Origin: a virus
Length of the DNA: 40,849 bases
Direction: 5' to 3' (one strand)
Virus record (IMG/VR): IMGVR_UViG_3300044611_001100
Location: 1 to 40,849 of that record
The translations under genes were made by a program, and so were the position numbers. Each line of letters opens with the position of its first letter. Position 1 is the stretch's first letter. The notes beneath the pieces are model-generated. The model was not told where the DNA came from. It searched no databases and saw only the letters and a list, made by a program, of their open reading frames with translations. Positions 10,846-40,849 of the stretch are shown here, piece by piece.

Positions 10846-10870
10846 TGTTCTATTTACCGCCGAACTTTAA
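10846..10870. repeat. 25-bp direct repeat, left copy, flanking pstS
   Basis: The 25 bases TGTTCTATTTACCGCCGAAC-TTTAA are identical to 11985-12009. This copy covers the last bases of the pstS stop. The two copies bracket pstS exactly. Confidence 0.85.
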
Positions 10871-14314: not shown

Positions 14315-14318
14315 CTAA

Positions 14319-14392
14319 TGGTCTGTAGCACAATTGGCAGTTGCACTCGGCTGTTAACCGAGATGTTGTAGGTTCGAGTCCTACCAGACCAG
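14319..14392 (+). tRNA. tRNA-Asn (GTT)
   Basis: Acceptor TGGTCTG/CAGACCA; anticodon arm CTCGG CTGTTAA CCGAG; T-loop TTCGAGT. CCA is not encoded. Confidence 0.92.
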
Positions 14393-14395
14393 CAA

Positions 14396-14467
14396 GGCAC
14401 CATCGTCTATCGGTTAGGACATCGCCCTTTCACGGCGAAAAGACGGGTTCGACTCCCGTTGGCGCTA
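14396..14467 (+). tRNA. tRNA-Glu (TTC)
   Basis: Anticodon arm CGCC CTTTCAC GGCG and T-arm ACGGG TTCGACT CCCGT. The acceptor GGCACCA/TGGCGCT has one G-U and one A-C mismatch at the fourth pair, so the stem is slightly weakened. Confidence 0.85.
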
Positions 14468-14468
14468 C

Positions 14469-14541
14469 GCCCTCATAACTCAGGGGATAGAGTCACGGAC
14501 TTCTAATCCGTTGGTCGCAGGTTCGAATCCTGCTGAGGGCA
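14469..14541 (+). tRNA. tRNA-Arg (TCT)
   Basis: Acceptor GCCCTCA/TGAGGGC is perfect; anticodon arm ACGGA CTTCTAA TCCGT; T-loop TTCGAAT. It reads AGA/AGG codons, which are common in the AT-rich genes here. Confidence 0.92.
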
Positions 14542-17078: not shown

Positions 17079-18035
17079 ATGGCAAACATAGTCTTTTTAG
17101 GCAATTTTGAAGTACCATATAGTAGCGAAAATCATCACGCTAACTCTTTAGAATCTTTAGGTCATACTGTTTGTAGATTGCAAGAAAGAACAATTAAGGA
17201 TAGTTTTGTTCTTGAACAAGCAATGAACAGTGATCTCTTTATATGGGTGCATACACATGGCTGGAACACTCCAGGAAGAATCGGTATGGGCTACGTGCTA
17301 GAAGAGTTAAAGAAGGCCAACATCCCCACAATGACATATCATTTAGACCTATGGCTTGGTTTAGAAAGACAGAAAGACTTAGAAGAGGATGACTTCTATA
17401 AAACAATTGGACACTTCTTTGCAACAGATAAATTAATGACTGATTGGTTTAATGAGAACACTAATGTAAAAGGACACTTCCTTCCTGCTGGAGTATATGA
17501 TAAAGAGTGCTACATTCATCCAGACTATGATGTTCAAGACTTTGATTACGATGTGATATTTGTTGGTAGTAAAAGATATCACCATGAATATCCATACAGA
17601 CCGCAACTAATAGATCACTTAAGAAATGTTTATGGTAAAAGATTTTTACATGTAGGTGGAGATGGTGATACTGGAACTGTCCGTGGAGATAAGTTAAATA
17701 GAATTTATGCTAAAAGTAAGATAGCAATTGGAGATAGTTTAAATATAGGATTTAACTATCCTTACTATACAAGCGATAGATTGTTTGAAAGTACTGGTCG
17801 TGGTGGATTTACTATCTACCCTCGTATTAAAGGTCTTGAAGAATATTTTGAAGATGAAAGTGAAATTGTTTTTTATGAACATGGAAACTTAAAAGATTTA
17901 ACAGATAAGATAGATGAATATCTTGAAGACAACCTTAGCAGGGAAGATATAAGATTAAATGGTCATGAAAGAACTAAGCAAGAGCATACATATATACATA
18001 GATGGGCAACTATACTAAAGGAGTTAAACATATGA
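17079..18035 (+). CDS. CgeB/GT4-like glycosyltransferase
   Basis: The 318-aa protein has a Rossmann-like N-terminal half (ANIVFLGNFEVPYSSENHHANSL..., IPTMTYHLDLW) and a C-terminal half with VIFVGSKRYHHEYPYRPQLI and SDRLFESTGRGGFTIYPRIKGLEEYF, matching the Glyco_trans_1_2/CgeB type of GT-B glycosyltransferases. Sugar donor and acceptor are unknown. AAAGGTAATA precedes the ATG. The next gene starts at ATGA overlapping its stop, so this leads a five-gene glycan operon. Confidence 0.75.
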   Translation: MANIVFLGNFEVPYSSENHHANSLESLGHTVCRLQERTIKDSFVLEQAMNSDLFIWVHTHGWNTPGRIGMGYVLEELKKANIPTMTYHLDLWLGLERQKDLEEDDFYKTIGHFFATDKLMTDWFNENTNVKGHFLPAGVYDKECYIHPDYDVQDFDYDVIFVGSKRYHHEYPYRPQLIDHLRNVYGKRFLHVGGDGDTGTVRGDKLNRIYAKSKIAIGDSLNIGFNYPYYTSDRLFESTGRGGFTIYPRIKGLEEYFEDESEIVFYEHGNLKDLTDKIDEYLEDNLSREDIRLNGHERTKQEHTYIHRWATILKELNI

Positions 18036-18784
18036 ACTTTATAGAAAGATCTGATATCGTATGGAAAACAGTTCCATATATTCGTCAAGGTGAAACCAGA
18101 AACTATGATTACAATCTTGAATTAAACGAGCCATTGGCAAGTTGGGATGTTTGGGATTATTGGGAAAAAGAAAGAATACATAGCATGAAGACTCACCTTA
18201 AGAAAGGTGATGTATTTTTTGATATTGGCACAGAATCTGGATGGTGTAATTTAGTTTATGCTGATATAGTTGGACCAGAAAACATGGTGCTTATTGAACC
18301 AACACCAGAGTTTTGGCCAAACATTCATGCTCTTTGGTATAAAAATTATTCAGTAGATCCGTTAGGAATGTATGCTGGATTAATTAGCGACAACACAACT
18401 GATACTCGCAAAGGTAGTGATCTTAATGCGTGGGGAGAAGATTATCTTGGTGCAATTATTGATCGCAATAAGTATGTCTATATTCATGACAATTCTGCAA
18501 ACATACCTATGATTAAATTAGATGACTATGTTTCTGAAGTTGGCATTGTTCCAGATGTTTTAAATATTGATGTAGAAGGTGCAGAACTTCTTGTATTTAA
18601 AGGTGCAGAAAACACGTTAAGAAATAATAATTTAAAAATATTTGTATCAATTCATGATGATTTAGGTCTGCGTGATTACAATACATCACCTGAAGATACT
18701 ATATCTTATCTAGAATCTCTTGGATATGTTGGAGAATTTCTAGCAAAAAATCATGAAGCACATTGGTATTTTGAAAAGAAATAA
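18032..18784 (+). CDS. FkbM-family SAM-dependent methyltransferase
   Basis: Start at 18032, with AAAGGAGTTAAACAT, overlapping the upstream stop. SAM motif VFFDIGTESGWCNLV (about residues 61-75), then VLIEPTPEFW, IPMIKLDDYV and the family hallmark LNIDVEGAELLVFKGAENTL (about 182-201). It would O-methylate a sugar or glycan. 250 aa, full-length for the family. Confidence 0.85.
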   Translation: MNFIERSDIVWKTVPYIRQGETRNYDYNLELNEPLASWDVWDYWEKERIHSMKTHLKKGDVFFDIGTESGWCNLVYADIVGPENMVLIEPTPEFWPNIHALWYKNYSVDPLGMYAGLISDNTTDTRKGSDLNAWGEDYLGAIIDRNKYVYIHDNSANIPMIKLDDYVSEVGIVPDVLNIDVEGAELLVFKGAENTLRNNNLKIFVSIHDDLGLRDYNTSPEDTISYLESLGYVGEFLAKNHEAHWYFEKK

Positions 18785-18786
18785 AA

Positions 18787-19635
18787 ATGTTAACTGCCTA
18801 TATTTATTCTAAAGATCCACTTGATTCTGCTAATGATAAATGGGATTACGGTCTATTAAAGCAAACATTTGAAAGAAATAAAATAAAAGAAGTTGTTGTT
18901 GATACATTGCCACAAGAAGAAAGAGCCTTTGTTGTTATTCCTGGACAAGGTAATGCTGGTAAAGAAGATAGTATAAATGATGAATTAAAAAATATAGGCA
19001 GAGTAGTTTTATTTATAACTGGAGATGAAGGAAATTTATTTGATATTGATAAAATAACGCATGGAAATATATCTATTTGGGTTCAATGCCCGACAAGAAA
19101 ACACCAAAAATATAATAAACTTCCTATAGGTGCACCACATCATATTAAAGACAACATCCCCGAATATACAGAAAAAACACATACTGCATGCTTTGCTGGG
19201 CAAATTACACATAAGAGAAGACAGCAATTAGCAGACATAATGCCAAGTATTAAAGATTCTATTTATAAACCTACTGATGGCTTTGCCAAAGGCGATGAAC
19301 CAAAAGAATATTATAAAAATTTGTTTAGTGCTAAAATTGCTCCCGCTCCTGCAGGCGCTGTAAGTATGGATTCATTTAGATTTTTTGAAGCAATTGAAAT
19401 GCTTTGTCTGCCTATTGCAGACTTAAGAAACTCTAAAGGGCATAAAGATAATTTTTATCATTATATTTTTGATGAAACATTGCCATTTCCATCAACTAGT
19501 AATTGGTCAGAATTGCCAGAGATTATTAAATCAATATTAAAGGATTATCCAAACAATATGCATCATGTAGTTTCTTGGTGGATTAAATATAAAAGAGATT
19601 TTGCAATTAAACTTATGAAGGAGATATATGCATAA
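18787..19635 (+). CDS. Exostosin-like glycosyltransferase
   Basis: The C-terminal half carries TACFAGQITHKRRQQL, then YYKNLFSAKIAPAPAGAVSMDSFRFFEAIEMLCLPIA, which matches the exostosin (GT47-like) pattern of a short Arg/His segment followed by a (C/A)P.G....S.R..E....G.IP block. The N-terminal half is less recognisable. 282 aa. It begins 2 nt after the methyltransferase and overlaps the next gene by 8 nt. Confidence 0.55.
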   Translation: MLTAYIYSKDPLDSANDKWDYGLLKQTFERNKIKEVVVDTLPQEERAFVVIPGQGNAGKEDSINDELKNIGRVVLFITGDEGNLFDIDKITHGNISIWVQCPTRKHQKYNKLPIGAPHHIKDNIPEYTEKTHTACFAGQITHKRRQQLADIMPSIKDSIYKPTDGFAKGDEPKEYYKNLFSAKIAPAPAGAVSMDSFRFFEAIEMLCLPIADLRNSKGHKDNFYHYIFDETLPFPSTSNWSELPEIIKSILKDYPNNMHHVVSWWIKYKRDFAIKLMKEIYA

Positions 19636-20389
19636 GAATGACGTAACAATTATTGTTGTAACATCAGTTCTTCCAGATCACCCAGACACTTCTATCCTTG
19701 ATGAAACAATTAACTCCGTAAGATATCATTTTCCTGATAACGAAATCATATTGCAGATAGATGGCTTGCGTGAAGAAAGACTAAATAGAAAAAATGATTA
19801 TGATGAATTTAAGAACAGAGTGTTATGGAAATGTTTGCATGAATGGAAAAATGTTTTACCAATAATTTTTGACAAACATAGTCATCAGACAACAATGATG
19901 AAAGAAACAATTGGTTTAATAACTACATCAATATTATTGTATGTTGAGGGAGATGCTCCACTTGTTACTGAAGAGCCTATAGATTGGCAAAAATGTTTAG
20001 ATATGTTTGAGTATAATGAAGCAAAAACAATTAGATTTCACTTTGAAGCATCTATTCCAAGATCACATGAGCATTTAATGTTTGGTCTTAGTGATGATTT
20101 TATGAAAACAGCACAATGGAGCCAAAGACCACACCTATCTTTAGTGTCGTATTATAGAAATGAGATTATGCCAAGATTAAAGGATCATTCGTTTATAGAA
20201 GACATTATCCATGGCGCTATACAAGATGATATTTTGCCCTATGACGTATTTGATAAAGAAGGATGGGACAAACATAAACTTTGGATCTACCATCCAAAAA
20301 ATAATATTAAAAGATCTTACCATTTAGACGGACGCAGGGGTACAAGAAAATTCACATCAGATGATGACGTATGGGGATATACTGAATGA
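19628..20389 (+). CDS. GT-A-type glycosyltransferase
   Basis: The N-terminus VTIIVVTSVLPDHPDTSILDETINSV and NEIILQIDGLR resemble the nucleotide-binding start of GT2-like enzymes. ILLYVEGDAPL around residue 100 offers the expected acidic metal-binding residues (E-G-D, variant of DxD). 253 aa. Overlaps both neighbours (8 nt and 4 nt). Confidence 0.55.
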   Translation: MHKNDVTIIVVTSVLPDHPDTSILDETINSVRYHFPDNEIILQIDGLREERLNRKNDYDEFKNRVLWKCLHEWKNVLPIIFDKHSHQTTMMKETIGLITTSILLYVEGDAPLVTEEPIDWQKCLDMFEYNEAKTIRFHFEASIPRSHEHLMFGLSDDFMKTAQWSQRPHLSLVSYYRNEIMPRLKDHSFIEDIIHGAIQDDILPYDVFDKEGWDKHKLWIYHPKNNIKRSYHLDGRRGTRKFTSDDDVWGYTE

Positions 20390-21429
20390 GACTTGGAATT
20401 ATTGCTAGATCAGACAATACTGGGCTGGGATACCAAACAAAACAGTTAACAGATATGTTAAAACCTAGCAAAGTAATGTTAATTGATTTTTCTCAACATA
20501 ACAATAATAAACAACATCCTGAATGGTATAACGGATATGAAGTAATAAATGTTCTTGGTATACCAGATAGCAGGGATATCGATAGATTTTTAAAAGATAT
20601 AGACGTTGTATTAAGTTGTGAAACATTCTACAACAATGACGAACTGATATTAAAGGCTAGAGATAAAGGAATTAAAACAATTCTTCAGTATAATTACGAA
20701 CTTTTTGGGAACCTATCAAAAAAGAATATGGAATTACCAAATGTTTTAGTATCTCCTAGTTCATGGAAAATAGATGATATTGAGTTTAAATTTGGCAGAA
20801 AAGCAAAAGTAGTTCACTTGCCACCGCCAACAAACACAAATCTATTTGACGGTGCTAGTAAAATTAATAGATCAAAAACTCATAATCGCATACTGCACAT
20901 TGGTGGAAAACGTGCTGCACAAGATAGAAATGGAACCAACACAATAGTTAATATGTTGAAATATTCTAAAGCAGATTATGAACTAGTAATAAGGACGCAA
21001 ACCAAACTTGATCTAAACTTTAATGATGATCGTATTGTATTAGATTATAATGATAGTGTAGATAGAGAGTCAATGTACGTTGGCTTTGATGCTATGGTCT
21101 TGCCTAGAAGATATGCTGGACTATGTTTACCTATGAATGAGTCTTTGCTTAGTGCCCTGCCAGTTTTTATGACAAATATCGCCCCCAACCATAAAGTGCT
21201 TCCAAAAAAATGGTTAGTAGAGTCACATCTAATTGAACAGTTTAAAGCAAAAACTATGATAAATGTTTATGAAGCAGATTTAAAAAAACTAGCAGGACTT
21301 ATTGATAATTATGTTGCACTTAGTAATGAACAAAAAAATATTGAAAAAGAAGAAGCCTTGTCCATAGGATATGAAAACTTTGCTCCAGAGGCACTACTGC
21401 CACAATACATTAAATTAATTAATGAATAA
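20386..21429 (+). CDS. GT4-like glycosyltransferase
   Basis: GT-B architecture: N-terminal MRLGIIARSDNTGLGYQTKQL with the glycine-rich GLGYQ loop, a linker VLVSPSSWKIDDI, then C-terminal ILHIGGKRAAQDRNGTNTIV and MYVGFDAMVLPRRYAGLCLPMNESLL, the family's donor-binding E-x-n region. 347 aa, typical length. Last gene of the plus-strand glycan operon; convergent with the Stealth-like gene. Confidence 0.7.
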   Translation: MRLGIIARSDNTGLGYQTKQLTDMLKPSKVMLIDFSQHNNNKQHPEWYNGYEVINVLGIPDSRDIDRFLKDIDVVLSCETFYNNDELILKARDKGIKTILQYNYELFGNLSKKNMELPNVLVSPSSWKIDDIEFKFGRKAKVVHLPPPTNTNLFDGASKINRSKTHNRILHIGGKRAAQDRNGTNTIVNMLKYSKADYELVIRTQTKLDLNFNDDRIVLDYNDSVDRESMYVGFDAMVLPRRYAGLCLPMNESLLSALPVFMTNIAPNHKVLPKKWLVESHLIEQFKAKTMINVYEADLKKLAGLIDNYVALSNEQKNIEKEEALSIGYENFAPEALLPQYIKLINE

Positions 21430-24786: not shown

Positions 24787-25212
24787 CTATTCTACCAGAC
24801 CTGGATAATCTGTGCAAATGCCATAAACATTATTATATTTATAATCTAAATTTAAATCAACTATAATTGATTTTTCTGTAACATTTTTTCCTGGATATGT
24901 CCATATATACCCATTGCTTGTTAAAGTAAAATCATCTTCTTGATGCCAAAAAAACATATGTTTATTTCTATCTAATGCATTTAAAGCATTGATATTTTTA
25001 CAATGAAACCAGGACACATCTTTAATATCATCTATAAATCTATCTCCTACTGGATATTGTGAAAAATCATGACCTAAGTACCAAGTAGATTCTATCAGTC
25101 TAATATCAATCTCTACATTAAATCCCTTTTGTATTGCATGGTAAATAAGCCCAGGACTATTCTCTAGTGGACTTGGACCATCAACATTTCCTCTGTGTGC
25201 TATTTTAATCAT
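24787..25212 (-). CDS. GDPD-like phosphodiesterase (141 aa)
   Basis: IAHRGNVDGPSPLENSPGLI and GFNVEIDIRL near the N-terminus, then YLGHD, are the HRG...EN...E.D+R...HD catalytic motifs of glycerophosphodiester phosphodiesterases and related PLC-like enzymes. It is a minimal version (141 aa against 240+ in cellular enzymes), lacking part of the barrel. It overlaps the HAD/NTP-transferase gene by 8 nt, suggesting joint work on a phospho-sugar or teichoic-type polymer. Confidence 0.7.
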   Translation of the reverse strand: MIKIAHRGNVDGPSPLENSPGLIYHAIQKGFNVEIDIRLIESTWYLGHDFSQYPVGDRFIDDIKDVSWFHCKNINALNALDRNKHMFFWHQEDDFTLTSNGYIWTYPGKNVTEKSIIVDLNLDYKYNNVYGICTDYPGLVE

Positions 25213-26572
25213 TCTTACTCCTATTATATAAATAATAGTTCAAATCTTCTGGAGTACCTATTCCCCACATTTTTTCAACTGGTAAAGCATAAATCTTTTT
25301 TTCATCTAAAATAGCCTCGTTAAATGCTGGGCATGTATAAAATTCATTATTTACACGAATATCTTTATTAATCATTTGTTTTGCATATTTTATAAAATCT
25401 GACCCATGTTTCCAATAGTATATTCCTACCGTTGCATTATCACTAATAGGTTTTTTTTCAGCAACTTCTAAAACTAATCCATCTGAGTCTGTTTTTGCAT
25501 AAGACCACTTTGGATGTGATGATTTAAATGTTGCTATTCCACCGTCTGCATTCTTGCTATATAAATCATATAAAAACTTTTTACTGTCCCATTCAACAAT
25601 TTGATCTGAGTTTGCTATAAAAAGTGGACTATTGTTGTTTATATACTCGGAGGCCATTAAGCAGGTTCTTGCAGCACCGTCTGTAATTCCATTTATTTTT
25701 ATTATGTTGCAATTAGGTGTAATTCTATTAAGCAAGTATTCTAAACCATATTTATCATAATGTTCTTGTTGTACAACATAAGTATATTTTGCATTAATAC
25801 CCAAACTATTTACTACAGCCTGTATCATTGGCATATTATCAACTTCTATCAATGGCTTTGGAAATGAATATCCAGCATCAAAAAATCTACTACCCATTCC
25901 AGCCATTGGAATTAAAACGTTTAAACTATTATCATTCCACATACTTTTTGAATTTTTTAAATAATCAATTGCAATATTTATTTTTTCTAAACACAAGTCA
26001 GATCTATTTGTAATTTCAAAAAGTTTTGCTTTGCTATCTATTGCTGCAAGTTTTCCAACAATACTATCTTCAAATATTGCTGTATCTTCTGGCAAAAGAC
26101 CAAAAAATGACATTGCCTTCCAATACATTTCTGGATGTGGTTTAGCAAACTTAACGTCTTCGCTGCTTACTATATAATCTACAAAGTCAATAATTCCAAG
26201 AGATCTTAAACAACTTTCAACTGTTAATTTTATACTATTGCTTGCAACAGATATAAACATATTATTTTTTTTAATATGTTTAAACAAATCAATAAGTTCA
26301 TAATCTATTGATAGACCATCTAATGCAATTTTAGTAGCATTCTGTTTTTCAGTATAAATTTGTTCATAGTATTTTTGTTCTAAACCTTTACTCTTTGTTA
26401 AAATTTTTAACTTATCTTTTGTTGGTAGGCCTTCATAAATTTTAGAATGTTCTTCTTTTGATATGATATATTTTTTATCAACATTTTTTAAGGCACAGTT
26501 TAATGCAACAAAATGTATTTCTTTGCTGTCAATTAACACTCCATCAAGATCAAAAACAATTAATTTGTTCAT
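25205..26572 (-). CDS. HAD phosphatase / sugar nucleotidyltransferase fusion
   Basis: Residues 1-205 are a HAD hydrolase: FDLDGVLIDS (motif I), SVASNS (II), KFAKPHPEMY (III), IFEDSIVGKLAA (IV). Residues 215-455 are an NTP-transferase: VLIPMAGMGSRFFDAGYSFPKPLIEV (nucleotide loop), FIANSDQIVEW (metal Asp) and MWGIGTPEDLNYYL. One chain could dephosphorylate a sugar phosphate and activate another as an NDP-sugar. It supplies the surface-glycan genes around it. 455 aa; SGNH and GT61 genes lie just upstream. Confidence 0.85.
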   Translation of the reverse strand: MNKLIVFDLDGVLIDSKEIHFVALNCALKNVDKKYIISKEEHSKIYEGLPTKDKLKILTKSKGLEQKYYEQIYTEKQNATKIALDGLSIDYELIDLFKHIKKNNMFISVASNSIKLTVESCLRSLGIIDFVDYIVSSEDVKFAKPHPEMYWKAMSFFGLLPEDTAIFEDSIVGKLAAIDSKAKLFEITNRSDLCLEKINIAIDYLKNSKSMWNDNSLNVLIPMAGMGSRFFDAGYSFPKPLIEVDNMPMIQAVVNSLGINAKYTYVVQQEHYDKYGLEYLLNRITPNCNIIKINGITDGAARTCLMASEYINNNSPLFIANSDQIVEWDSKKFLYDLYSKNADGGIATFKSSHPKWSYAKTDSDGLVLEVAEKKPISDNATVGIYYWKHGSDFIKYAKQMINKDIRVNNEFYTCPAFNEAILDEKKIYALPVEKMWGIGTPEDLNYYLYNRSKND

Positions 26573-26576
26573 AATA

Positions 26577-27455
26577 TTATTTTATCATATACAACGAATG
26601 TGCAAATTCAGACCAGGCATAATGAAACGCATATCCAAAATGTGGCTCTTGATCATCTCTTTTGTCATAAGCGTCTATCAAACAATCTAAATTTTTATTT
26701 TGATCAATACATGTAAATATATCATTAAAAAATTTTTTTTCATCTATTTGATAAAAAGTTTTAAAATAGTTATAAAGTTTTTCATCAGATTTATTTTTAT
26801 ATAAGTCAACTATATTTTTATTTTTTATTAAAGTATATCTGTTAAGTAAGAATTGTGTCCAAGTAAAAGAAATTAATTTTATGTTATTTGAATTACAATA
26901 CTGTTCTAACATTAAATATACATTATGAGATAAAATAGTAGCAAGATAGTTTGTCTGATGATTCTGCTGTGCATCATCATGTAGATAAATAACGTCTCTT
27001 CCAATATTTGGAAAGTTAATAAAAATACAATCTGGATTGCCAAACATTTTACAGTATTTAAAAATGTTACTTATTATTTCAAAGTTTGATCCTGCTGGAA
27101 TTCCAAGATTATAGAAACCACTTAATGACTCTTTTTCTTTTATTTTTTCATAAACTAAAGTTGGCCATAAATAATCTTGTGGCATTCCAACTCCAAAGGT
27201 GTTTGAACATCCAGCAAATAAAATATGCTTGCCATTATGTTTATCAGTAAAATCATCTGATCTAAATCCATAATTGTTTAAATAGTATGTACTTGGATCA
27301 TCTGATAAATAATTTATTTTTTGTTTTTTTTGAGAGTCGTATGTAGGTCTATCAACAAAACAATTTGTTTTTATTTTTTCATTATCAAATGCCCATAGTG
27401 GCACAATAAAATCATTTAAGTTTATATTTTTTTTATGAAATTTAAAAAGATTCAT
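26577..27455 (-). CDS. SGNH-hydrolase-like protein
   Basis: ILFAGCSNTFGVGMPQDYLWP (about residues 78-98) is the Ser-containing block I of SGNH/GDSL esterases, NLGIPAGSNFEI (about 116-127) offers the Gly/Asn blocks, and the C-terminal DDQEPHFGYAFHYAWSEFAHSLY could provide the Asp/His pair. Likely an acyl-esterase acting on a glycan, although block I has Cys-Ser in place of Asp-Ser. 292 aa; overlaps GT61 by 14 nt. Confidence 0.6.
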   Translation of the reverse strand: MNLFKFHKKNINLNDFIVPLWAFDNEKIKTNCFVDRPTYDSQKKQKINYLSDDPSTYYLNNYGFRSDDFTDKHNGKHILFAGCSNTFGVGMPQDYLWPTLVYEKIKEKESLSGFYNLGIPAGSNFEIISNIFKYCKMFGNPDCIFINFPNIGRDVIYLHDDAQQNHQTNYLATILSHNVYLMLEQYCNSNNIKLISFTWTQFLLNRYTLIKNKNIVDLYKNKSDEKLYNYFKTFYQIDEKKFFNDIFTCIDQNKNLDCLIDAYDKRDDQEPHFGYAFHYAWSEFAHSLYMIK

Positions 27456-28467
27456 TGTTTAATAACACCCCAACTATTTTATTTTTTTCTAGTTTATCTA
27501 CTAAATCTTTTGAGTTAGAATTATACTCATTTTGTATTGATATATATGTGTGGTTTTTTGACCAGGCTATATCTCTATATTGTCCATGAGTTGATGTCCT
27601 TTTCATACGAGATTTTGTCTCAACATTATATGATGATGTCTCTAGTGGTGTGTATATTTCTACAATGTTAGATTTATTTGGCATCATTAACATATTTAAC
27701 AAACCGCTTCCAGTCAAACCGATTAGTGTTTTAACAGAACTAAAATATTTTATTTGATCTTCAAATGTTTTAAATGTTTCTGGAATAACTATCTCGCAAC
27801 CATTATTTTTAAAAAATTCTTCAATTAAATATTCGTTATTTTGTCTATCCATATTAATATATTTTTGTGATTTTACATTTCTTGACAAATATACAACTTT
27901 ATTTGCAACTTCATCTTTTGAATATTCGCTAAACAAATTAGAAAGCAAGTCAAGGTTTTGCAACTTAAGTTCTGTGTCTTTGAAGATGGCACAGTTATCT
28001 GTTTTAATAATAACATTTTTATTTGGATGTGATGTATTATTAATTTTATTAAGTTCTTGCATTCTTTTTGGAGAAGAGTTTATTATTGTAAAATTAATAT
28101 GTTTTTTTTCTAATACTTCTAAAAAAAATTTAAAAAATGCTGGTCCATCTTTATCATAAAAATAACTAGGAATATCTGAAGAATCTAAAATGAATTCAAA
28201 ATCACCCCACGAAGGACTAGACTTAAAATTTTTGTCTAAATATAAAATTTTTGCAAGATTGTCTATTAAATTATGATATATTCTTGGATGTAAACCTATA
28301 AGTATTTTATTGTTTGTTGAAGTTAGGTCTAATATACTATAATTGTTTTCTTTTATAAAATCATTATTCCTTGCTACATAAACATGGTTGTTAGACTGAT
28401 ACTCAAGGTATCTAATATTTTTATCATAATTGATATGCATATGTATTGGAATATTATTTATTAACAT
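27442..28467 (-). CDS. GT61-family (DUF563) glycosyltransferase
   Basis: VVYLSRNVKSQKYINMDRQNNEYLIEEFFKNNG (starting about residue 192), then FEDQIKYFSSVKTLIGLTGSGLLNMLMMPNKSNIVEIYTP, match the conserved C-terminal half of GT61 enzymes (R....R.l.NE..l......G, and GaGl.N..f.p.g..viEi). 341 aa. Very AT-rich coding. Downstream of WhiB by a direct junction. Confidence 0.8.
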   Translation of the reverse strand: MLINNIPIHMHINYDKNIRYLEYQSNNHVYVARNNDFIKENNYSILDLTSTNNKILIGLHPRIYHNLIDNLAKILYLDKNFKSSPSWGDFEFILDSSDIPSYFYDKDGPAFFKFFLEVLEKKHINFTIINSSPKRMQELNKINNTSHPNKNVIIKTDNCAIFKDTELKLQNLDLLSNLFSEYSKDEVANKVVYLSRNVKSQKYINMDRQNNEYLIEEFFKNNGCEIVIPETFKTFEDQIKYFSSVKTLIGLTGSGLLNMLMMPNKSNIVEIYTPLETSSYNVETKSRMKRTSTHGQYRDIAWSKNHTYISIQNEYNSNSKDLVDKLEKNKIVGVLLNNESF

Positions 28468-31315: not shown

Positions 31316-32737
31316 TTATTTGTAAATAGGAAAGTTATATGTTTTTTCCCATTCAATTATATCATGCTCGTCATTAAGCAGGGGCTGGCCCTTAATATTT
31401 AAACTTGTATTTAATAATACTGGGACCCCTGTTTCTAAAAAAAACTTATTCAATACTCGCCATAAACCAGAATGCTGTTCTCTATTTACTGTTTGAACTC
31501 TACTTGTTCCGTCAATATGAACAACAGATGGTATTTGACTAGGTCTTAAACACTTTACGGCATACTGCATATAAGGACTAGTAAAAGACATGTCAAACCA
31601 TTTTGATGCGTATTCTTCCATAACTACTGGGGCAAAAGGTCTAAATAGTTCTCTTTGTTTTATTTTGTTTACCTTATCTTTAATGCTAGGATCTCTAGGA
31701 TCTGCCAAAATACTTCTATTCCCTAATGCTCTAGGCCCATATTCTGCTCTACCGTTTGCAACTGCAACTATTTTATTTTTCTTTATTGCCTCAAAAATTT
31801 CTACTGCTGGATACTTATCTCCAATTTTATGACCTAAATAAGGTCCTTGCCAATCAAGATGTTTGCCATATAATGCTGCTGCTGCCCCCAAAGACGAACC
31901 AGCATCTCCAGGATTAGGCATAATCCAAACATCTTCAAATATATCCCATAGTTTTGTATTAGCAGAACAGTTTAATGCACAACCACCCATAAAAACTAAC
32001 TTTGTTTTTTTTGTTTTTTGTTTTGCATATCTCATAAATTCTATAAGCCTGTCTTCATAAACTTTTTGAACCGCTGCTGCAATGTCAAATTTATCTTGTT
32101 CTAAAATTGTATGTGGCCAATCATGTATTCCTTTATGAAGATTATATTTTTGTCCATTAAAAACAGGAAAATATTCATCTACCTTTTTTAAATATTTTGA
32201 TGGATCACCATAACCAGCCATGCCCATAAAAATATACTCTTCTTCATTTGGTTTTAATCCTACAAGTTTTGTAAATGCTGAATAAAATAATCCAAAACTT
32301 ATTGGATAATTAATTGATTCAATATGATTTATTTTATTTCCTTCACCAGTCCAAATTGTAGACGTGTTCCACTCACCAATAGCATCAAGAACAACTATCA
32401 ATGCATTATCAAACTTACTTGTATAGTATCCTGCTGCTGCATGTGAGTAATGGTGTTTAAAGTTTACCCTTGGTATTCCTAAAAGATCAAATTTAGGTTT
32501 CCAATCTGATGACCCACCAAATAACAGCCTAGATTTTTTTAAATATGGTTTTTCATAATATGCAATCTTATCTGGTTTGCCATAGTTAAATGCATCATTA
32601 ATCAACTGTTGATTGATATACCAGTCATTTTTTTGTTTGCTGTATCTTTCTGCATGCCCTGCAAAAAGTATTTCTCCATCTTTAATCAAAGATACAGATG
32701 CATCGTGAGACGTTTCGTTAATACCTAATATAATCAC
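31316..32737 (-). CDS. NodU/CmcH-type O-carbamoyltransferase
   Basis: Start at GTG 32737 giving (M)IILGINETSHDASVSLI; upstream in-frame codons lie in the tRNA-Thr gene. Motifs: HHYSHAAAGYYTSKFDNALIVVLDAIGEW, FMGGCALNCSANTKLWD, GDAGSSLGAAAALYG (Kae1-like metal/ATP domain) and the C-terminal YGPRALGNRSILADPRD...FRPFAPVV. It transfers a carbamoyl group from carbamoyl phosphate, via ATP, to a hydroxyl of a sugar or small molecule. 473 aa, slightly short. The AAGAGG of the tRNA acceptor strand is the only Shine-Dalgarno-like sequence. Confidence 0.88.
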   Translation of the reverse strand: MIILGINETSHDASVSLIKDGEILFAGHAERYSKQKNDWYINQQLINDAFNYGKPDKIAYYEKPYLKKSRLLFGGSSDWKPKFDLLGIPRVNFKHHYSHAAAGYYTSKFDNALIVVLDAIGEWNTSTIWTGEGNKINHIESINYPISFGLFYSAFTKLVGLKPNEEEYIFMGMAGYGDPSKYLKKVDEYFPVFNGQKYNLHKGIHDWPHTILEQDKFDIAAAVQKVYEDRLIEFMRYAKQKTKKTKLVFMGGCALNCSANTKLWDIFEDVWIMPNPGDAGSSLGAAAALYGKHLDWQGPYLGHKIGDKYPAVEIFEAIKKNKIVAVANGRAEYGPRALGNRSILADPRDPSIKDKVNKIKQRELFRPFAPVVMEEYASKWFDMSFTSPYMQYAVKCLRPSQIPSVVHIDGTSRVQTVNREQHSGLWRVLNKFFLETGVPVLLNTSLNIKGQPLLNDEHDIIEWEKTYNFPIYK

Positions 32738-32738
32738 G

Positions 32739-32809
32739 AGCCTCTTGTAAGAATCGAACTTACGCATCCCGCTTACAAGGCGGGGGCACTACCACTATGC
32801 TAAAGAGGC
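32739..32809 (-). tRNA. tRNA-Thr (TGT)
   Basis: Minus-strand acceptor GCCTCTT pairs with AAGAGGC; anticodon arm CCCGC CTTGTAA GCGGG gives TGT; T-arm GTAAG TTCGATT CTTAC. It reads ACA. Sandwiched between the secreted peptidase and carbamoyltransferase genes without spacing. Confidence 0.92.
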
Positions 32810-34324: not shown

Positions 34325-34849
34325 TTAAATGCTAACTGTGTCAATAGGACCCATACATGATGTTGAGAATTTAATTGCAGATGCAACTGCACCAATAGAT
34401 CTTTTACGTGCATCCTTTTGATTTTCTGTAGCAAACAAATACCCCATTGCATATGACGAGCCAGAACCCATTGTAAGATATTCATTATTATATTGAGTTA
34501 ATGACATGTCTGCTGCACTATGTTCAAAGATTTCACCTTTAACGCAAATGATCATTCCAAAATCAGAATCTTTTGAAACGTCTACCCACCAATCATTATA
34601 AAAATCTCTAAGTTCTTTGATAAACTTTGTATACATAAATTTTTGTATATTGTTTCCAGTTGGAATAGATGGTTTAAAATTATGTCGAATGCGTTCGCCA
34701 TCCATACTGCCTGCATAACCGATAATATACGGACCTAATTGCCAAACTTTTGGCGTGGAAGATGCAAGCATCATATCATCATCAGATACACCACGTTCAC
34801 CAGACATATAAATTTTATCTTCTTTACGAACAGCAACAATACAAGTCAC
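34325..34849 (-). CDS. HslV/proteasome-beta-like N-terminal-Thr hydrolase
   Basis: Start at GTG 34849, with AAGGGG 5 nt upstream and a promoter just before. After Met removal the chain begins TCIVAVRKEDKIYMSGERG, aligning with HslV TTIV.VR...v.iaGD. Later motifs: PKVWQLGPYIIGYAGSMDGERI and YLTMGSGSSYAMGYLFA (HslV GSGG.YA.aAa.A). 174 aa equals HslV length. Thr1 would be the nucleophile. No HslU-like ATPase is seen in this window, so it may work with a host ATPase or on procapsid proteins. An upstream TTG start would place the reading frame on the -35 box. Confidence 0.8.
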   Translation of the reverse strand: MTCIVAVRKEDKIYMSGERGVSDDDMMLASSTPKVWQLGPYIIGYAGSMDGERIRHNFKPSIPTGNNIQKFMYTKFIKELRDFYNDWWVDVSKDSDFGMIICVKGEIFEHSAADMSLTQYNNEYLTMGSGSSYAMGYLFATENQKDARKRSIGAVASAIKFSTSCMGPIDTVSI

Positions 34850-34877
34850 AAATACCCCTTTAATAGCACCTAAATCA

Positions 34878-34906
34878 ATTGTACCATCAGAGGGGTATCG
34901 TGTCAA
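34878..34906 (-). promoter_or_regulatory. Minus-strand promoter of the HslV-like gene
   Basis: Read on the minus strand: TTGACA (34906-34901), 17 bp, TACAAT (34883-34878). The start of transcription would be about 22 nt before the GTG codon. Confidence 0.8.
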
Positions 34907-35219: not shown

Positions 35220-35402
35220 TTAGTCCCCCTCCCTATTTCTTATTGGACTTGTGATTATCCAAAGAGTTGTAGTCGCCATGATTCCATAACCAACTATTGT
35301 TTTTGCACTACCATCTAATACTACCCAGGCAATAAACATTCCAAGAAGGGTCCATGCCTGATCTATTAGATCTTTTATTATATTTTTTATTATTCTTACC
35401 AT
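35220..35402 (-). CDS. Two-helix small membrane protein (60 aa)
   Basis: An amphipathic N-terminus (MVRIIKNIIKDLIDQ), then AWTLLGMFIAWVVL and YGIMATTTLWIITS as two membrane helices. GAGGAGGAAGAAA precedes the ATG, which overlaps the end of the PA14 gene. Sits with another small membrane protein, a plausible holin pair. Confidence 0.65.
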   Translation of the reverse strand: MVRIIKNIIKDLIDQAWTLLGMFIAWVVLDGSAKTIVGYGIMATTTLWIITSPIRNREGD

Positions 35403-37555
35403 TTTCTTCCTCCTCTTGAACCTGGTGAGTTGGCTCCTGAGCCCCCACCAGAACTTCCTCCGCTACCTGAACCTCCTGTAGCGCCACCTGCTGCTACTGC
35501 TGCTGCGTTAATTGCTGCACCTGTTGCAACAACTGTTGCCACAACCATATCTGTTGCTTCTTCTCGTTCTTCCTCAGTCATATCTGCACCAATACTTCCA
35601 AGGGCTGCTAATGCTGCTCCTGGGTCAGTAAATGCTGCTTCTAATAATGCTCCTGGGTCTTGAACTAATTCTATGTTTGCAGCAACTTCAGCAGTAATAA
35701 TAAGTGCGTTTCCATTTTCGTCAGTGCGTAGTTCTACTGGTGTTTCTGGTGGAAGATCTGCGTATGAAACTCCAGATGCCTGTACTTCTGCTGCTGAAAT
35801 TGATTCTCCTGGCTTAAGATCTTCTATTAATGCTGCTACTACAACATCTTTTTGTTCTTCAGTTAATTCTTTACCATCTTTTGCATCTTCAAGTATTTCG
35901 TTTAATTCTTCTTCTTCTGCTTTTGCTTCTTCTTCAGCAGCCTTTTCTTCTTCTAATTCTTTTGCTTCGACTTCTTCAGCAATTCTTTTTTCTTCTGCAA
36001 GTGCTTCAGCCTCTGCTTCTGCCTTTGCTTTTGCAATTGCTTCTTCTTCTGCTGCTATACGCTCAGCCTCTGCCTTTGCTTCTTCTGCAAGTCTTTCTTC
36101 TTCCGCTATGCGCTCTGCCTCTATGCGTTCAGCCTCTGCTTTTGCTTCTGCTTCTGCTTTTTCTTCTGCTTCTTTAAGTTCTGCTGCAATGCGATCTGCT
36201 TCTTCTTGGGCTTCTATCTCTGCTTGAATTCTTGCTGCTTCAATCTCTGCTGCTTCACGGTCAGCCTTTTCTTTTAGTTCCAATTCTGCTTTAATTCTTT
36301 CTGCTTCTTGTGCTGCTTGAAGTGCTGCAATTCTTTCAGCCTCTGCTTGAGCTGCTGCTGCCTGGGCTGCAATTAATGCTGCTGTTTCTGCCTGTATCCT
36401 TGCTGCTTCTGCTTGTTGTGCTGCTGCTAATGCTGCAGTTGTTGCAGCAATTTCTGCTTCAGTTGGCCCAGTTGGTATTGTCACAGTTGTTGTTTCGCTA
36501 GGTGTAGGTGTAGTGACTGTTGATGTTTCACTAGGTGTTGTCACGGTTTCTGTTTCAGGTGTTGGCGTTGTGACTGTTATTGTTTCAGGTGTAGGTATTG
36601 TTACTGTTATTGTTTCAGGTGTAGGTATTGTTACTGTTGCTGTTTGAGAAGGGCTAGGGGTTGGAGTAGGGGTAGGCTCTGGAGCAGGGGCTACATATGT
36701 AGAACCAGTAACAACATTTGAATTTGCAGAGTAAAGGGAGAAGGTATCGTTATCTGATCTAATATGAAATGACCATATTGTTCCTGCTGGCATAAGACCA
36801 TCTAGCAAGGAATGGTCAATTGTAATTGTTGTATTTAAAGAGTTTGGTCCGCCAACATTTCCAGTAGCAATTCCCCAACCATTACATCCAGTACAATTAA
36901 AACTAATTGCATATCTTTCTGGTTGAGTGTTTCCAGTGTCTGGTGCTTCCCAACTTAAAACTGTTGATGTTTCTCCACTACTTATTGTTAAATTTCTTGG
37001 AGGTCCTATTGTTTTTACTACTGGTGCTGATTGTGAAGTAAATGCTGATGCTGGAATAATATCCATAGATCCAGACTGATCCCAATGAAGGAATACATTT
37101 GCTCCCCCGCCATTTTCATAATACATTAATTCTATTGTTTTTGGAATACCTGCTGTAAATGATATTGGATCACTAATAGTACCTCCACCGCCTTTATCAC
37201 GCCAGTCATCTGCTACTAAGACTCCATCAATGTAAAGCTTTGTACCATCATCTGCTGTTGCTAAAAATGATATATTTTGAGTAGAATCGCTTCTAATTGA
37301 CCCAGTAAATCGTACGATAACATCCTCTGAAGGGCCACCTAATACACTACCAGAACCCCACTGGAAGTCAATGTTAGGTACATTAGTCGTGACGACTGGA
37401 GAGGCTCCCTGGGGTATGTAGGGAGAGCCATTTTGTCCTAGTACATTATAGACTTGAGCAGTCAAACCTTCTGCTGCGTGGGCTTTATCAATTATTAAAA
37501 GCAGGGGAAATAGAGCAAGGGATAAAACCAATGCTACTCTCAATAACTTTTTAAT
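35396..37555 (-). CDS. Secreted PA14 / FN3 / coiled-coil structural or adhesion protein
   Basis: I place the start at ATT 37555 (MKKLLRVALVLSLALF), 6 nt after AAGGAG, giving a complete signal peptide ending DKAHA; the next in-frame start is TTG at 37543. Order: PA14 domain (about 28-165; DGTKLYIDGVLVADDW), FN3 domain (about 180-290), Thr/Pro repeats (TVTIPTPETI), a long Ala/Glu-rich TolA-like coiled coil (about 365-565), a C-terminal domain and a Gly/Ser tail. About 719 aa. PA14 binds carbohydrate, so host-surface attachment or a fibre is likely. Confidence 0.8.
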   Translation of the reverse strand: MKKLLRVALVLSLALFPLLLIIDKAHAAEGLTAQVYNVLGQNGSPYIPQGASPVVTTNVPNIDFQWGSGSVLGGPSEDVIVRFTGSIRSDSTQNISFLATADDGTKLYIDGVLVADDWRDKGGGGTISDPISFTAGIPKTIELMYYENGGGANVFLHWDQSGSMDIIPASAFTSQSAPVVKTIGPPRNLTISSGETSTVLSWEAPDTGNTQPERYAISFNCTGCNGWGIATGNVGGPNSLNTTITIDHSLLDGLMPAGTIWSFHIRSDNDTFSLYSANSNVVTGSTYVAPAPEPTPTPTPSPSQTATVTIPTPETITVTIPTPETITVTTPTPETETVTTPSETSTVTTPTPSETTTVTIPTGPTEAEIAATTAALAAAQQAEAARIQAETAALIAAQAAAAQAEAERIAALQAAQEAERIKAELELKEKADREAAEIEAARIQAEIEAQEEADRIAAELKEAEEKAEAEAKAEAERIEAERIAEEERLAEEAKAEAERIAAEEEAIAKAKAEAEAEALAEEKRIAEEVEAKELEEEKAAEEEAKAEEEELNEILEDAKDGKELTEEQKDVVVAALIEDLKPGESISAAEVQASGVSYADLPPETPVELRTDENGNALIITAEVAANIELVQDPGALLEAAFTDPGAALAALGSIGADMTEEEREEATDMVVATVVATGAAINAAAVAAGGATGGSGSGGSSGGGSGANSPGSRGGRKW
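36548..36640 (-). repeat. Tandem repeats encoding TVTIPTPETI
   Basis: A 30-bp unit is repeated nearly perfectly (for example at about 36574 and 36604), encoding the Thr/Pro linker. Such repeats can change in copy number by slippage and so change linker length. Confidence 0.7.
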
Positions 37556-37618: not shown

Positions 37619-37654
37619 ACAAAAAAGAGGGCCAGCACTAAAACTGACCCTCTT
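37619..37654 (-). terminator. Strong intrinsic terminator after the S-layer-like gene
   Basis: On the minus strand AAGAGGGTCAG pairs with CTGGCCCTCTT (11 bp, one G-U) and is followed by TTTTTT. It lies 13 nt after the stop at 37667 and ends the highly structured secreted-protein transcript. Confidence 0.9.
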
Positions 37655-37666
37655 ATTGTTAAGGTA

Positions 37667-39373
37667 TTAAGCCTTTACCTTCTTAGCAATCTTTGCAACT
37701 ACCGTTGCAAGTGACTTGATTTGTGCTTGAAGTCCAGCAATTAACTTAGCTACAGACTCTGAAAGAGCTGCAACTGCATCTGTTGCTGCTTGTGCTGCTG
37801 CAGTTGCAGCATCTGCTGCTTTAGCTGCATCAAGCGCTGCAGTTGTTGCTGCGTTAGAAGCCTCTAGAGCTTCTTTTGCTGCATCTGTTGCTGCCTTCTG
37901 TGCAGAATCTTCAACAAGTGCCTCTGCAGAAACTACAACCTGACCTGCTACTGGAAGAGATGATCCACCAGTTGCTGTAATCTTAATTGTATTTTGTACA
38001 AGTGGCATAAAGACCTTGTATGTCTTAACTGTTGCTGTATCTGTTGTTACAGAAGCAGATGTTAGTACATCAGATGCTGATCCAAATGCATAGTTAGAAA
38101 CAATTCCACCTGTAGCAAATAGATTAGCGTGTGTCTTACCAGATACTGGAAGACCTGCTGCATCTAGAACCTGAACTGTAATAGTCGCTGCTTCTCCTGG
38201 AAGGTACTGAGCCTTATCAAAAGACAACTTGACAGTTGCTGCTGCACCCTCTACACGAGTTGCAACTGGTGCAGATGATACTGTTCCTGACTTAACAGTT
38301 ACAGCAACTCCACCTGTCTTAACTCCTGTAAGAGTAAATAGTGCTTCACCATTTACGATTGTTGCTGCAGTTCCTGAATCAGATACCACTGAAACATCGC
38401 TTGAGAAAGCATTAAGTGTTCCTGCTCCAACTGTTACTCCAGCAGCATCGTATGCTACTGCCTTAATTGTTGAAACATTTGATCCCACTGGGATAACAGA
38501 CTTAACTGTTGTTGCTACGATAGATGCGATATCTCCATAGAATGTTACCTTCTCAGTTGCAAGAACTACACCTGCAAGTGTTGTAAGGGTAATTGTTGAT
38601 ACTCCTGCTGTACCGTCAGCAAATACACCAATATGGTTTCCTGAAGGAATTACCAATGAGCGACCTTGTGCTGAAATTGATGTTGCATTTGATCCGCTAC
38701 CAATCATTCCTGAACCTGAAACTGTTGCAAGAATTGACTCAGTTGCTGATCCTCCTGCTGCATTCTTAGGTGTAACAACAATTACTGCTGCTGCATCTGT
38801 TGAAGTAGCCTTTGGAGCATAAACTGTAGCATCTGCTGTTGCAGTTGTTACTTCGCCAGCATTAAGGATAGATGTAGTAGTTGAAGCAGATGGAGTTAGA
38901 TCCGCTGCCTTAACTGTTACTGTCCATGAAACTGATGGTCCATTGATTGGGCTTGTTGTCAAAATTCTTGCATCATATGTACCTGCAACTGTTGGTGCAT
39001 TCAAAGTTACCAAGAACTTTGCTGTTACATATGTTGGTGTGTTAACTGTTGAGTTAACGTTTGCTGAAACATTATTTCCTGCAATAACTACTGAGGATGT
39101 TGATGTTTCTAGAAGTGATAGGGTTGCAGACTTTGCTGCCCCTGTTGGCTGAGAGAACATAGCAGAGATAATTGTTGCTGTATCTGCTGATGTTTCTGAA
39201 ATAAACGACAATGTTACTACTGCTGTAGCAGACTCACCAGATGTCACAGCGTCTGTTGCTGAGTCAATGGCTAGAGTTGGTGCGTTTACAGCAGCACTTG
39301 TCGGAAGTGCTGATAGTACGCCAAAAGACATTGCTGCAGCTAGTCCCAAAGCGATTTTCTTAAATGAATTCAC
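37667..39373 (-). CDS. S-layer-like secreted surface protein
   Basis: Start at GTG 39373, with AAGGAGAAGTAA. A signal peptide (MNSFKKIALGLAAAMSFG... cleaved near TSAAV, residue 28) precedes about 460 residues of Thr/Val/Ala/Ser-rich Ig-like beta domains (for example FDKAQYLPGEAATITVQVLDAAGLPV). An Ala-rich coiled coil follows (about 495-545; ALDAAKAADAATAAAQAATD), then the tail LQAQIKSLATVVAKIAKKVKA. This architecture is what I associate with surface-layer proteins of planktonic actinobacteria, not with phage virions. An abundant product is suggested by its own strong terminator. Could be a tail or capsid decoration protein instead. Confidence 0.75.
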   Translation of the reverse strand: MNSFKKIALGLAAAMSFGVLSALPTSAAVNAPTLAIDSATDAVTSGESATAVVTLSFISETSADTATIISAMFSQPTGAAKSATLSLLETSTSSVVIAGNNVSANVNSTVNTPTYVTAKFLVTLNAPTVAGTYDARILTTSPINGPSVSWTVTVKAADLTPSASTTTSILNAGEVTTATADATVYAPKATSTDAAAVIVVTPKNAAGGSATESILATVSGSGMIGSGSNATSISAQGRSLVIPSGNHIGVFADGTAGVSTITLTTLAGVVLATEKVTFYGDIASIVATTVKSVIPVGSNVSTIKAVAYDAAGVTVGAGTLNAFSSDVSVVSDSGTAATIVNGEALFTLTGVKTGGVAVTVKSGTVSSAPVATRVEGAAATVKLSFDKAQYLPGEAATITVQVLDAAGLPVSGKTHANLFATGGIVSNYAFGSASDVLTSASVTTDTATVKTYKVFMPLVQNTIKITATGGSSLPVAGQVVVSAEALVEDSAQKAATDAAKEALEASNAATTAALDAAKAADAATAAAQAATDAVAALSESVAKLIAGLQAQIKSLATVVAKIAKKVKA

Positions 39374-39386
39374 TTACTTCTCCTTA

Positions 39387-40849
39387 TTATATTAGTTTTA
39401 AATTGTCAAGAAAATCCCTGACATCTTCAGGCATTTGCCTGTCTTCCAATTCTACCATAGCTCTTTGCTGTCTTGCAAGTTTATCACTTGTTCCCCAGGT
39501 ATGGATCTCTATTTCAATATCTATATCCTTTGGGGTGTGAGAGATAGCACCAAAAACAGCACCACAAACAGCATCTGCCAAGTCTTTAGATTTCTTTCTA
39601 GGGTGATCAACACGATTGCCCTTCATAATCTTCAACTCTGACATTTCTTCCAAGAGTAATGGAATCATTGGCATAGCAACTCGCTCTTCATAGATCATCA
39701 TTGCTAAATCTTCGTAGTGTTTTTTTGCAACAGAAACAGTATCAGTTCTTATTCCTACTGCTTTAAGTTCTTGTTGAATATCAAATGATTGCCAACGGTC
39801 AAAAGAAACCATTCCTATATTAAAGCCTTGCCTTCTAAGGTTTTGAATCCACTGCTTAACCTGAGATAGATCAACTGGTCCTTCTGATCTTGGTTCCCAC
39901 CATGCTACTGCATCTACTATTACGATAGGTGCTACTTGTTCATAATCTTTAATTACCTGGATATTTACCCACTTATCTACGTGAGCAATTGCTACCGCAC
40001 ACTTATCGTGCTTTTGTGCAAGGTCAGCGTGAACATAATAAATTTTATCTGGATCTGGTTTAAAGTTTTCTGCAAACCTTCTAAAACTATCAACAGGATT
40101 TGTTAATGTCATACAGCTAATTAGCTTGTCCTTTTGCTTAAAAAAAGCATCAGATGAGTACGTTGGGGTACAAAGAAAACGCATCATTGCATCTCCTAAG
40201 TCTGTTAAGAATGCAATCTTAAAGTCATCAATCTTACGGGTAGGGTTTACATCCCAAGTTGGACGCTTTAGTGCAAATATCTTAGGAATTTTATATGAAA
40301 GTATATTATCCTCATCCCATGATATTTCAAAATTGTTGTCTGGATTATCGTGTGGTAGATCTTCATTAATAATAAACTTATGTGTTTTTTCTATTACTTC
40401 TTTCTCAGCAATAACTGAATCATACCGTTGAGAAATAAAGTCACCTTGATAGCGGGGAAATGAAAGAAGAACAACCTTACCAAGATCAGGAAAACGAGAA
40501 TCTACAGTACCACGAAAAGCTTTGTATATGTTATCAGCAGTCTTTCCTTGTTCATTTCCTGTTGCTACCTCAGATGCAAAACCAGAAATTTCATCAAGGA
40601 CTGCCATAAACAAGTTCAAACCTTCGTGTGACTCACGCTCAGAGTGTCCAGAATAAACTGTGATTGATTTGTCAAACTCAACTGAGTCTGCTTTTGGATT
40701 ATACTTTCCTGCAAACCATGGTGATCTTTCAATCTTTGATTTAAAACCTTTAAAAAAAACGTTCTTTGCCTGCTGAGCATTAACTGCAACGTTGATAATG
40801 TCAATAGCATCTCCCGCAGGCTTTCCATAGTAAACTGCAGGGTCTTTAA
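39387..40849 (-). CDS. terL: Terminase large subunit (partial, N-terminus beyond the window)
   Basis: The frame stays open to the right edge (KDPAVYYGKPAGDAIDIINVA...), so the start and Walker A lie outside. LFMAVLDEISGFASE carries the Walker B DE, followed by the motor coupling region. The RNase-H-like nuclease has IYYVHADLAQKHDKCAVAI (first Asp), MVSFDRWQSFD (second) and SKDLADAVCGAV (third). It packages DNA into proheads. The visible 487 residues cover most of the protein. It marks the start of the late minus-strand gene run. Confidence 0.9.
   Translation of the reverse strand, partial: KDPAVYYGKPAGDAIDIINVAVNAQQAKNVFFKGFKSKIERSPWFAGKYNPKADSVEFDKSITVYSGHSERESHEGLNLFMAVLDEISGFASEVATGNEQGKTADNIYKAFRGTVDSRFPDLGKVVLLSFPRYQGDFISQRYDSVIAEKEVIEKTHKFIINEDLPHDNPDNNFEISWDEDNILSYKIPKIFALKRPTWDVNPTRKIDDFKIAFLTDLGDAMMRFLCTPTYSSDAFFKQKDKLISCMTLTNPVDSFRRFAENFKPDPDKIYYVHADLAQKHDKCAVAIAHVDKWVNIQVIKDYEQVAPIVIVDAVAWWEPRSEGPVDLSQVKQWIQNLRRQGFNIGMVSFDRWQSFDIQQELKAVGIRTDTVSVAKKHYEDLAMMIYEERVAMPMIPLLLEEMSELKIMKGNRVDHPRKKSKDLADAVCGAVFGAISHTPKDIDIEIEIHTWGTSDKLARQQRAMVELEDRQMPEDVRDFLDNLKLI

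Follow-up and report, generated by a model that had tools for sequence, protein, structure and literature searches.

The locus described here raises the question of why a phage should carry, immediately behind its large terminase gene (terL), a gene for a predicted exported protein built like a bacterial surface-layer (S-layer) protein. The gene lies on a virus record of 40,849 bases, the whole of which is referred to below as the window and which is 100% identical to bases 67276-108124 of a 108-kb IMG/VR contig (G001). A first-pass annotation had described an S-layer-like protein adjoining the terminase, and this is confirmed by an ORF of 568 aa (SLP), the start codon of which is 13 nt from the TerL stop (Table 1). 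The upstream neighbour was recognised as TerL by the PHROG terminase families, and shares 52% identity with TerL of Streptomyces phage Yaboi. The window gene starts with GTG and its aligned relatives mostly with ATG; a Shine-Dalgarno-like motif is present within 20 nt of the start in 105 of the 106 relatives with upstream sequence. A signal peptide (MNSFKKIALGLAAAMSFGVLSALPTSAA) was recognised by inspection, it also passes a crude signal-peptide rule, and its start is conserved in A1; export remains a prediction. The structure model (AlphaFold2, with a 65-row phage alignment as input; mean pLDDT 80.8, pTM 0.49) places a helix at residues 4-21, with low confidence there, followed by four beta domains and a tail that forms one continuous 78-residue helix. 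By inspection and modelling, the proposed arrangement of a signal peptide, serial Ig-like domains and an Ala-rich coiled coil holds in outline, and the C-terminus (...VVAKIAKKVKA) has the KIAKKVKA ending that had been pointed out.

Table 1. Features of the SLP locus (window coordinates).
Feature	Position	Strand	Basis or remarks
Another protein predicted to be exported; PA14 domain, long coiled coil	35396..37543	(-)	PF07691, 2.7e-08
Intrinsic terminator of SLP gene	37625..37654	(-)	12-bp stem (37654-37625), then TTTTGTT
SLP gene (phage surface-layer-like protein)	37667..39373	(-)	568 aa, GTG start; ORF, relatives and host homologues
C-terminal helix (tail), residues 490-567, ends KIAKKVKA	37673..37906	(-)	model and host comparison
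Beta domain 4, residues 378-487	37913..38242	(-)	AlphaFold2 model, partly low confidence
Beta domain 3, residues 283-375	38249..38527	(-)	AlphaFold2 model and SbsC fold match
Beta domain 2, residues 166-280	38534..38878	(-)	AlphaFold2 model
Beta domain 1, residues 33-157	38903..39277	(-)	AlphaFold2 model
Signal peptide, ~residues 1-28	39290..39373	(-)	inspection; cleavage point inferred
Shine-Dalgarno AAGGAG	39380-39385	(-)	sequence
Large terminase (TerL), 5' end cut by contig	39387..40849	(-)	directly upstream of SLP

Database searches with the window protein returned no Pfam family at E up to 0.1, neither an SLH domain nor PF04122, the cell-wall-binding domain of CwpV-like proteins. A sequence search of the PDB gave a single match (E 0.4) and the SLP profile likewise a single one (0.053), both uninformative. 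Fold comparison (VIA-align), which tested mainly residues 30-377, matched SbsC (4uid) to residues 280-376 with a Z of 12.0 and 2.7 A over 92 residues. The fold matches include SbsC, SbsB, Sap and EA1, all with low TM-scores, but because adhesins and complement proteins match too, the fold alone does not make SLP an S-layer protein.

Evidence of a different kind comes from bacterial genomes. None of 72 pattern matches from a first scan was confirmed by the phage profile, a result that would by itself have been a false negative; the probable cause is the use of phage-specific short peptide patterns. Genomes were then reached by way of a 16S probe, which returned 17 stretches, mostly actinobacterial by title. 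Nine of 13 of these genomes match the phage-family profile, at one place each, and the match extends over the length of the profile in IMCC26103 (1.3e-93), P. lacus (2.2e-88) and P. versatilis (1.1e-81). Strains IMCC19121 and IMCC25003 are also among the matched hosts, while LanE-43 matches in the tail only. Within the order of Planktophila versatilis, which we take to be Nanopelagicales, the profile matches 71 of 296 genomes (58 of them at one place; E down to 4.2e-116), and among 396 genomes drawn across the phylum it matches only the P. versatilis centre genome. The suggested comparison of the tail with Nanopelagicales surface proteins was also carried out: a profile of host and phage tail rows matches 83 of the 296 genomes, and in 65 of 77 genomes selected from this tail-positive set the DNA of the window tail finds a match. 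Fragmented assemblies and divergent bodies may lie behind the missing host matches. The postulated likeness to surface proteins of planktonic actinobacteria is therefore supported, without a crystalline S-layer having been shown. A phage-only head or tail family, or a lack of host similarity, would have spoken against the annotation; host similarity is clear, and no PHROG family (E up to 0.1), head or tail families included, and no INPHARED record was matched.

The host homologue has a predicted signal peptide, a beta body and an Ala-rich C-terminal helix often ending in ..LTNLVxKIQKKVKA; host bodies are very diverse and host tails are alike. Thirteen host regions were chosen for fetching, being matches on long contigs. 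A sigma-factor-cluster gene lies directly upstream of the host gene in 13/13. Twelve of the regions continue beyond the host gene, and in all of these except LanE-43 (11/12) the gene immediately downstream encodes a Wzy_C-like membrane protein. Neighbours were assigned by Pfam on one member per cluster, and the Wzy_C score (30.0 bits) is just below the cut-off of 31.7. Sugar-nucleotide dehydrogenase and epimerase genes are nearby in most regions. The corresponding LanE-43 protein, also encoded behind the sigma gene, is 873 aa long, contains a Big_1 domain and carries the same tail. The phage gene lies behind terL and not behind a sigma-factor gene; the window protein is a phage homologue of the host protein and not the host locus itself.

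Two further features of the host locus were observed. The upstream gene (L274:4973-6310 and its equivalents in the 13 regions) has sigma-70 regions 2 and 4 and, beyond them, what looks by eye like a membrane segment and then a long C-terminal extension; its product might sense the cell surface and regulate the coat. A conserved 25-nt hairpin immediately precedes the ribosome site of the host gene and lies within 75 nt of the start. In 13 script-picked leaders (L246, L252, L256, L258, L260, L261, L262, L264, L268, L270, L271, L276 and L286), 7 of its 11 pairs show compensatory changes and 91.6% of cells are paired (0/500 shuffles as high). No Rfam family reached its gathering score in the four host loci tested, and by eye no such hairpin is found upstream of the phage gene.

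In a comparison of 107 phage proteins with the best of 31 host proteins, body and tail were treated separately. Bodies have a median identity of 38.6% over 504 aa (107/107) and tails 67% over 100 aa (106/107), the latter scores being inflated as the tails are Ala-rich and no composition correction was applied. When bodies were placed on a tree (71 from phages after thinning and 29 from hosts, with two host fragments excluded), those of the phages occupied one side of a branch (SH-aLRT 100). The tree was built quickly, has long branches among the hosts and is rooted at the midpoint, so it does not resolve the direction of capture. The tail types of the 107 phage proteins are KIQKKVKA-like (78), KWN (20), NKLLKK (8) and one other. 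On the phage body tree the type changes only 7-8 times, whereas shuffling gives a mean of 18.9; the types are clustered, yet have been replaced again and again.

In DNA sequence, L068 has 89.5% identity with Planktophila LanE-43 over its final 228 bp, the tail of L037/L053 is 88.6% identical to host L259 over 211 bp, and that of L208 is 88.7% identical to host L254 over 186 bp; overall, the L037/L053 and L208 tails show 86.6-88.7% identity over 186-211 bp with hosts L259, L253 and L254. Some DNA match to hosts is found for 107/107 bodies and 90/107 tails, but body matches are patches only, none of the best eight listed being longer than 184 bp, at 70-77% identity. Identical codons over the last 36 positions were compared with expectation in seven pairs selected among the top matches. 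The excess is large for L068/LanE-43 (28 vs 16 expected), L037/L259 (24 vs 14.4) and L208/L254 (30 vs 16), and smaller for L053/L254 (18 vs 14), L192/L248 (17 vs 12.1), L067/LanE-43 (14 vs 13.2) and the window protein with L248 (14 vs 11.7, with 25/36 residues identical). Just before the tail, codon identity is within 3 of expectation in six pairs and below it in one. In three pairings a tail with 87-89% DNA identity is joined to a far-diverged body, so that recent exchange of tails between phage and host is clear; the direction is not shown. No recent exchange is seen for the window's own tail, for which the best host tail DNA is 74% identical over 228 bp. KWN-type tails have no convincing host (1/296, weak, and 0/396, the latter in a search without a positive control). 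Host-type bodies were confirmed in two viral contigs among the matches listed, both known carriers of the phage family, and in 0/33 of a further scan.

These data bear on whether SLP stays with the cell. It could instead be a soluble decoy or modulator released into the water, where it might bind phages or grazers, a proposal that the signal peptide and the lack of any anchor domain recognised by Pfam would allow; a C-terminal helix common to, and exchanged with, a host surface-type protein suggests docking, however, and we consider a released protein very improbable.

The place behind terL was surveyed using the best 80 TerL relatives among the matches listed (at least 600). An ORF of at least 100 aa is present within 400 nt downstream in 74, the other six having too little sequence, and the crude signal-peptide rule is passed by 74/74 of these ORFs, against a background of 30/365 ORFs of three phages. 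They fall into three families: A, that of the window protein (27), B (32, with KWN-like tails in 28) and C (15, ~536 aa when complete). Between families A and C there is a distant resemblance (32% over 241 aa, 1e-12). The family C profile has one match among the host loci examined, the gene behind the sigma factor in G158 (1.5e-49; 30-35% protein identity, the best row reaching 76% in DNA across the final 144 bp); the G158 genome is not matched by the family A profile. Judged from these matches, alternative alleles at one host locus are shown to be mirrored by alternative phage families in the case of A and C, and not in that of B. A single host match of family B (1.4e-08, scattered, with a rebuilt profile) was rejected as homology, leaving B without a convincing relative in the host loci examined. 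A structure model of family C was set aside (mean pLDDT 46). A search for the sigma gene in 56 chosen genomes returned mostly generic sigma factors, with clear matches in G158, in G068 and in a contig-edge fragment of G174; the 894-aa protein behind the sigma gene of G068 is unmatched by any phage family profile. For P0002, host matches were only weak and partial (10/151).

We hold tentatively, at somewhat less than even odds, that Nanopelagicales phages keep a coat-switching place behind terL, in which one exported protein mirrors a host allele; its address helix would be refreshed by recombination with the host, and the viral protein would slip into the coat and change the surface type.

Relatives of SLP were found in 225 of 236 pattern-matched IMG/VR stretches, of which the best 80 were retained, and in at least 219 in a second scan, among 599 matched stretches listed. 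The 204 fetched loci with an SLP gene were reduced to 116 after removal of identical stretches, and a related TerL lies directly upstream in 107; five of the remainder have at least 800 nt upstream but no TerL, and four are too short. In contig G001 the TerL, portal, capsid protease, capsid and tail genes are related to those of Yaboi (Stanwilliamsviridae), which itself has an HNH endonuclease gene behind terL; G001 also encodes WhiB. A 136-kb contig (G005) represents a different phage, with a PolA-type polymerase and another major head protein. Genes for the SLP, a PA14-like protein and a ribonucleotide-reductase-like protein, together with small genes, are common to G005 and G001. Nothing in G005 matches the G001 portal-to-tail genes; its structural genes are others. 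In four contigs the genes in common with G001 are reordered, with WhiB near SLP in three. Relatives of the PA14 protein of Table 1 are also near SLP in G005 and in the rearranged contigs.

Virions commonly display Ig-like domains, and a BFVD fold search with SLP is headed by viral Ig-domain proteins. Released SLP might therefore decorate virions, or bridge the virion and the host coat through the common helix in a form of mimicry or adhesion, and a tail matched to the host would suit host recognition. Such a role is at odds with the signal peptide and with the gene position, the portal-to-tail genes occupying ~14-37 kb of G001 and SLP 104.9-106.6 kb (~15 kb apart if the contig ends join). The absence of PHROG and INPHARED matches, and the presence of the gene in G005 with its other structural genes, also count against a virion part, which we regard as quite improbable.

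Phages pick up host genes, and SLP could be a captured gene drifting without function. A profile search of 19 records found one match place in 17 and two adjacent pieces in two, and one of the single-place records has a stop inside the gene. The ORF is nevertheless under constraint in the relatives, with a median dN/dS of ~0.26 for the body and 0.31 for the tail (simple counting; 449-500 sampled pairs, 71 genes). With a predicted exported protein at every readable place behind terL and SLP in two different phage types, passive cargo is already disfavoured and hardly credible. The strong private terminator that had been noted is present in the window (-24.6 kcal/mol, z -5.8; 0/200 shuffles equally good), but the high expression read from it is not shown: a consensus terminator scan of the region found five against 4.6 in shuffles, no excess, and a strict perfect-stem terminator within 90 nt of the gene occurs in only 16 of 106 relatives. 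For the great abundance typical of an S-layer protein, this terminator and the 5' hairpin of the host gene are no more than hints.

The best explanation of the locus is that the gene is, from its sequence, a phage version of a variable S-layer-like protein of a Nanopelagicales (Planktophila-like) host; an S-layer lattice is not shown. As to function, we give a probability of roughly 0.5 to SLP being a coat protein, made late and matched to the host, which uses the common helix to dock on the infected cell, masks or replaces the host coat and blocks adsorption. The protein would be made late, together with terL, and exported by Sec, and its helix would dock or co-assemble on the anchor or lattice already used by the host protein. 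The infected cell would become coated with a viral protein whose body is without the strain-specific surface of the host, and conserved phage bodies beside hypervariable host bodies fit such a coat. The most likely benefit, by inference, would be the exclusion of competing phages by blocked adsorption, which might also spare the phage's own progeny from waste on the infected cell and debris. There is no experimental evidence of a host S-layer, of anchoring by the tail or of an adsorption block by the phage protein, and superinfection exclusion has not been demonstrated. Exclusion genes are often early, whereas SLP follows terL. The lack of recent exchange in the window's own tail, host matches in only 71/296 genomes, KWN-type tails without a clear host, family B without a convincing host relative and the unmatched G068 protein also weigh against it, as do the low TM-scores of S-layer fold matches common to adhesins and complement.

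The main rival to blocked adsorption is maintenance or remodelling of the coat, the phage replacing the host coat protein as host expression collapses, so that the cell stays intact or grazing-resistant until lysis, or the envelope is readied for timed lysis. The same homology and tail matching support it, a need that arises late is consistent with the terminator and with the place behind terL, and the covarying 5' hairpin of the host gene might stabilise host mRNA. S-layers are cited as a reason for the grazing resistance of planktonic actinobacteria (PMC7669872). A plain copy would do for this purpose, however, and it remains unexplained why phage bodies form one lineage apart from the hosts; with no grazing or lysis data either, we think it unlikely.

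The window encodes other products that may be recorded here. Near the surface genes is an HslV/proteasome-like peptidase (window 34325-34906 (-); PHROG 1040, 1.2e-16). A substrate-binding protein with a predicted signal peptide (10867-11910 (-); PF12849, 2.4e-40) is presumably PstS-like. The rich set of sugar genes includes a carbamoyltransferase (31316-32767 (-)), a GT61 glycosyltransferase (27442-28467 (-)), a fused HAD/nucleotidyltransferase (25205-26572 (-)) and a run with glycosyltransferase and FkbM methyltransferase genes (17079-21429 (+)). There are six tRNA genes, four of them in one array (5459-5532, 14241-14541 (+) and 32739-32809 (-)).

According to PMC10202952, Nanopelagicales are abundant in freshwaters worldwide, but the lack of CRISPR-Cas in these hosts makes it difficult to assign phages to them, and cultured phages were first reported in 2023. 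The SLP finding points to a candidate surface antigen of this group: phages carry homologues of a host surface protein and swap its C-terminal helix with host strains, including the cultured LanE-43. The helix DNA is a sequence tag that may tie particular metagenomic phages to particular hosts, and if the coat-switching reading is true, the tail sequence would name the host of an uncultured phage and superinfection exclusion in Nanopelagicales would be directly testable in a cultured host.

In the literature, the description of two isolated Planktophila phages includes no such gene, as far as the accessible part of the report goes (PMC10202952), and no relevant passage was found in the portions available of PMC11039613 and PMC6802176. 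Searches for S-layers together with Nanopelagicales or Planktophila found nothing relevant, and no system of phage-encoded S-layer proteins was found among the matches listed, as far as titles and the beginnings of abstracts tell. The S-layer proteins of bacilli (SbsC, SbsB, Sap, EA1) are likewise chains of Ig-like domains and are among the best fold matches, but have no sequence match to SLP in PDB searches. They are anchored by SLH and other domains, which were not found in SLP by Pfam. Porin Lc of the lambdoid phage PA-2 is reportedly a phage-encoded homologue of a host surface protein that alters the cell surface, as SLP might, but is said to be an outer-membrane porin of a temperate phage, whereas here the protein is one of low-GC actinobacteria, tails are exchanged and a single place can hold any of several families. 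The CwpV protein of Clostridioides difficile is a cell-wall surface protein that also occurs in several types and gives a superinfection-exclusion-like phage block; it differs in being host-encoded and phase-variable, in not blocking adsorption, and in having its variable part at the C-terminus (PMC4737114), which in SLP is the common part. The uncharacterised host protein of Nanopelagicales (L242 in IMCC26103, L243 in P. lacus, L244 in P. versatilis) has the same signal peptide, beta body and Ala-rich C-terminal helix as the phage SLP and a body ~39% identical over ~500 aa. The host gene lies behind a sigma-factor gene, near sugar genes, and has a covarying 5' hairpin, whereas the phage bodies form a separate, less variable lineage encoded mostly behind terL.
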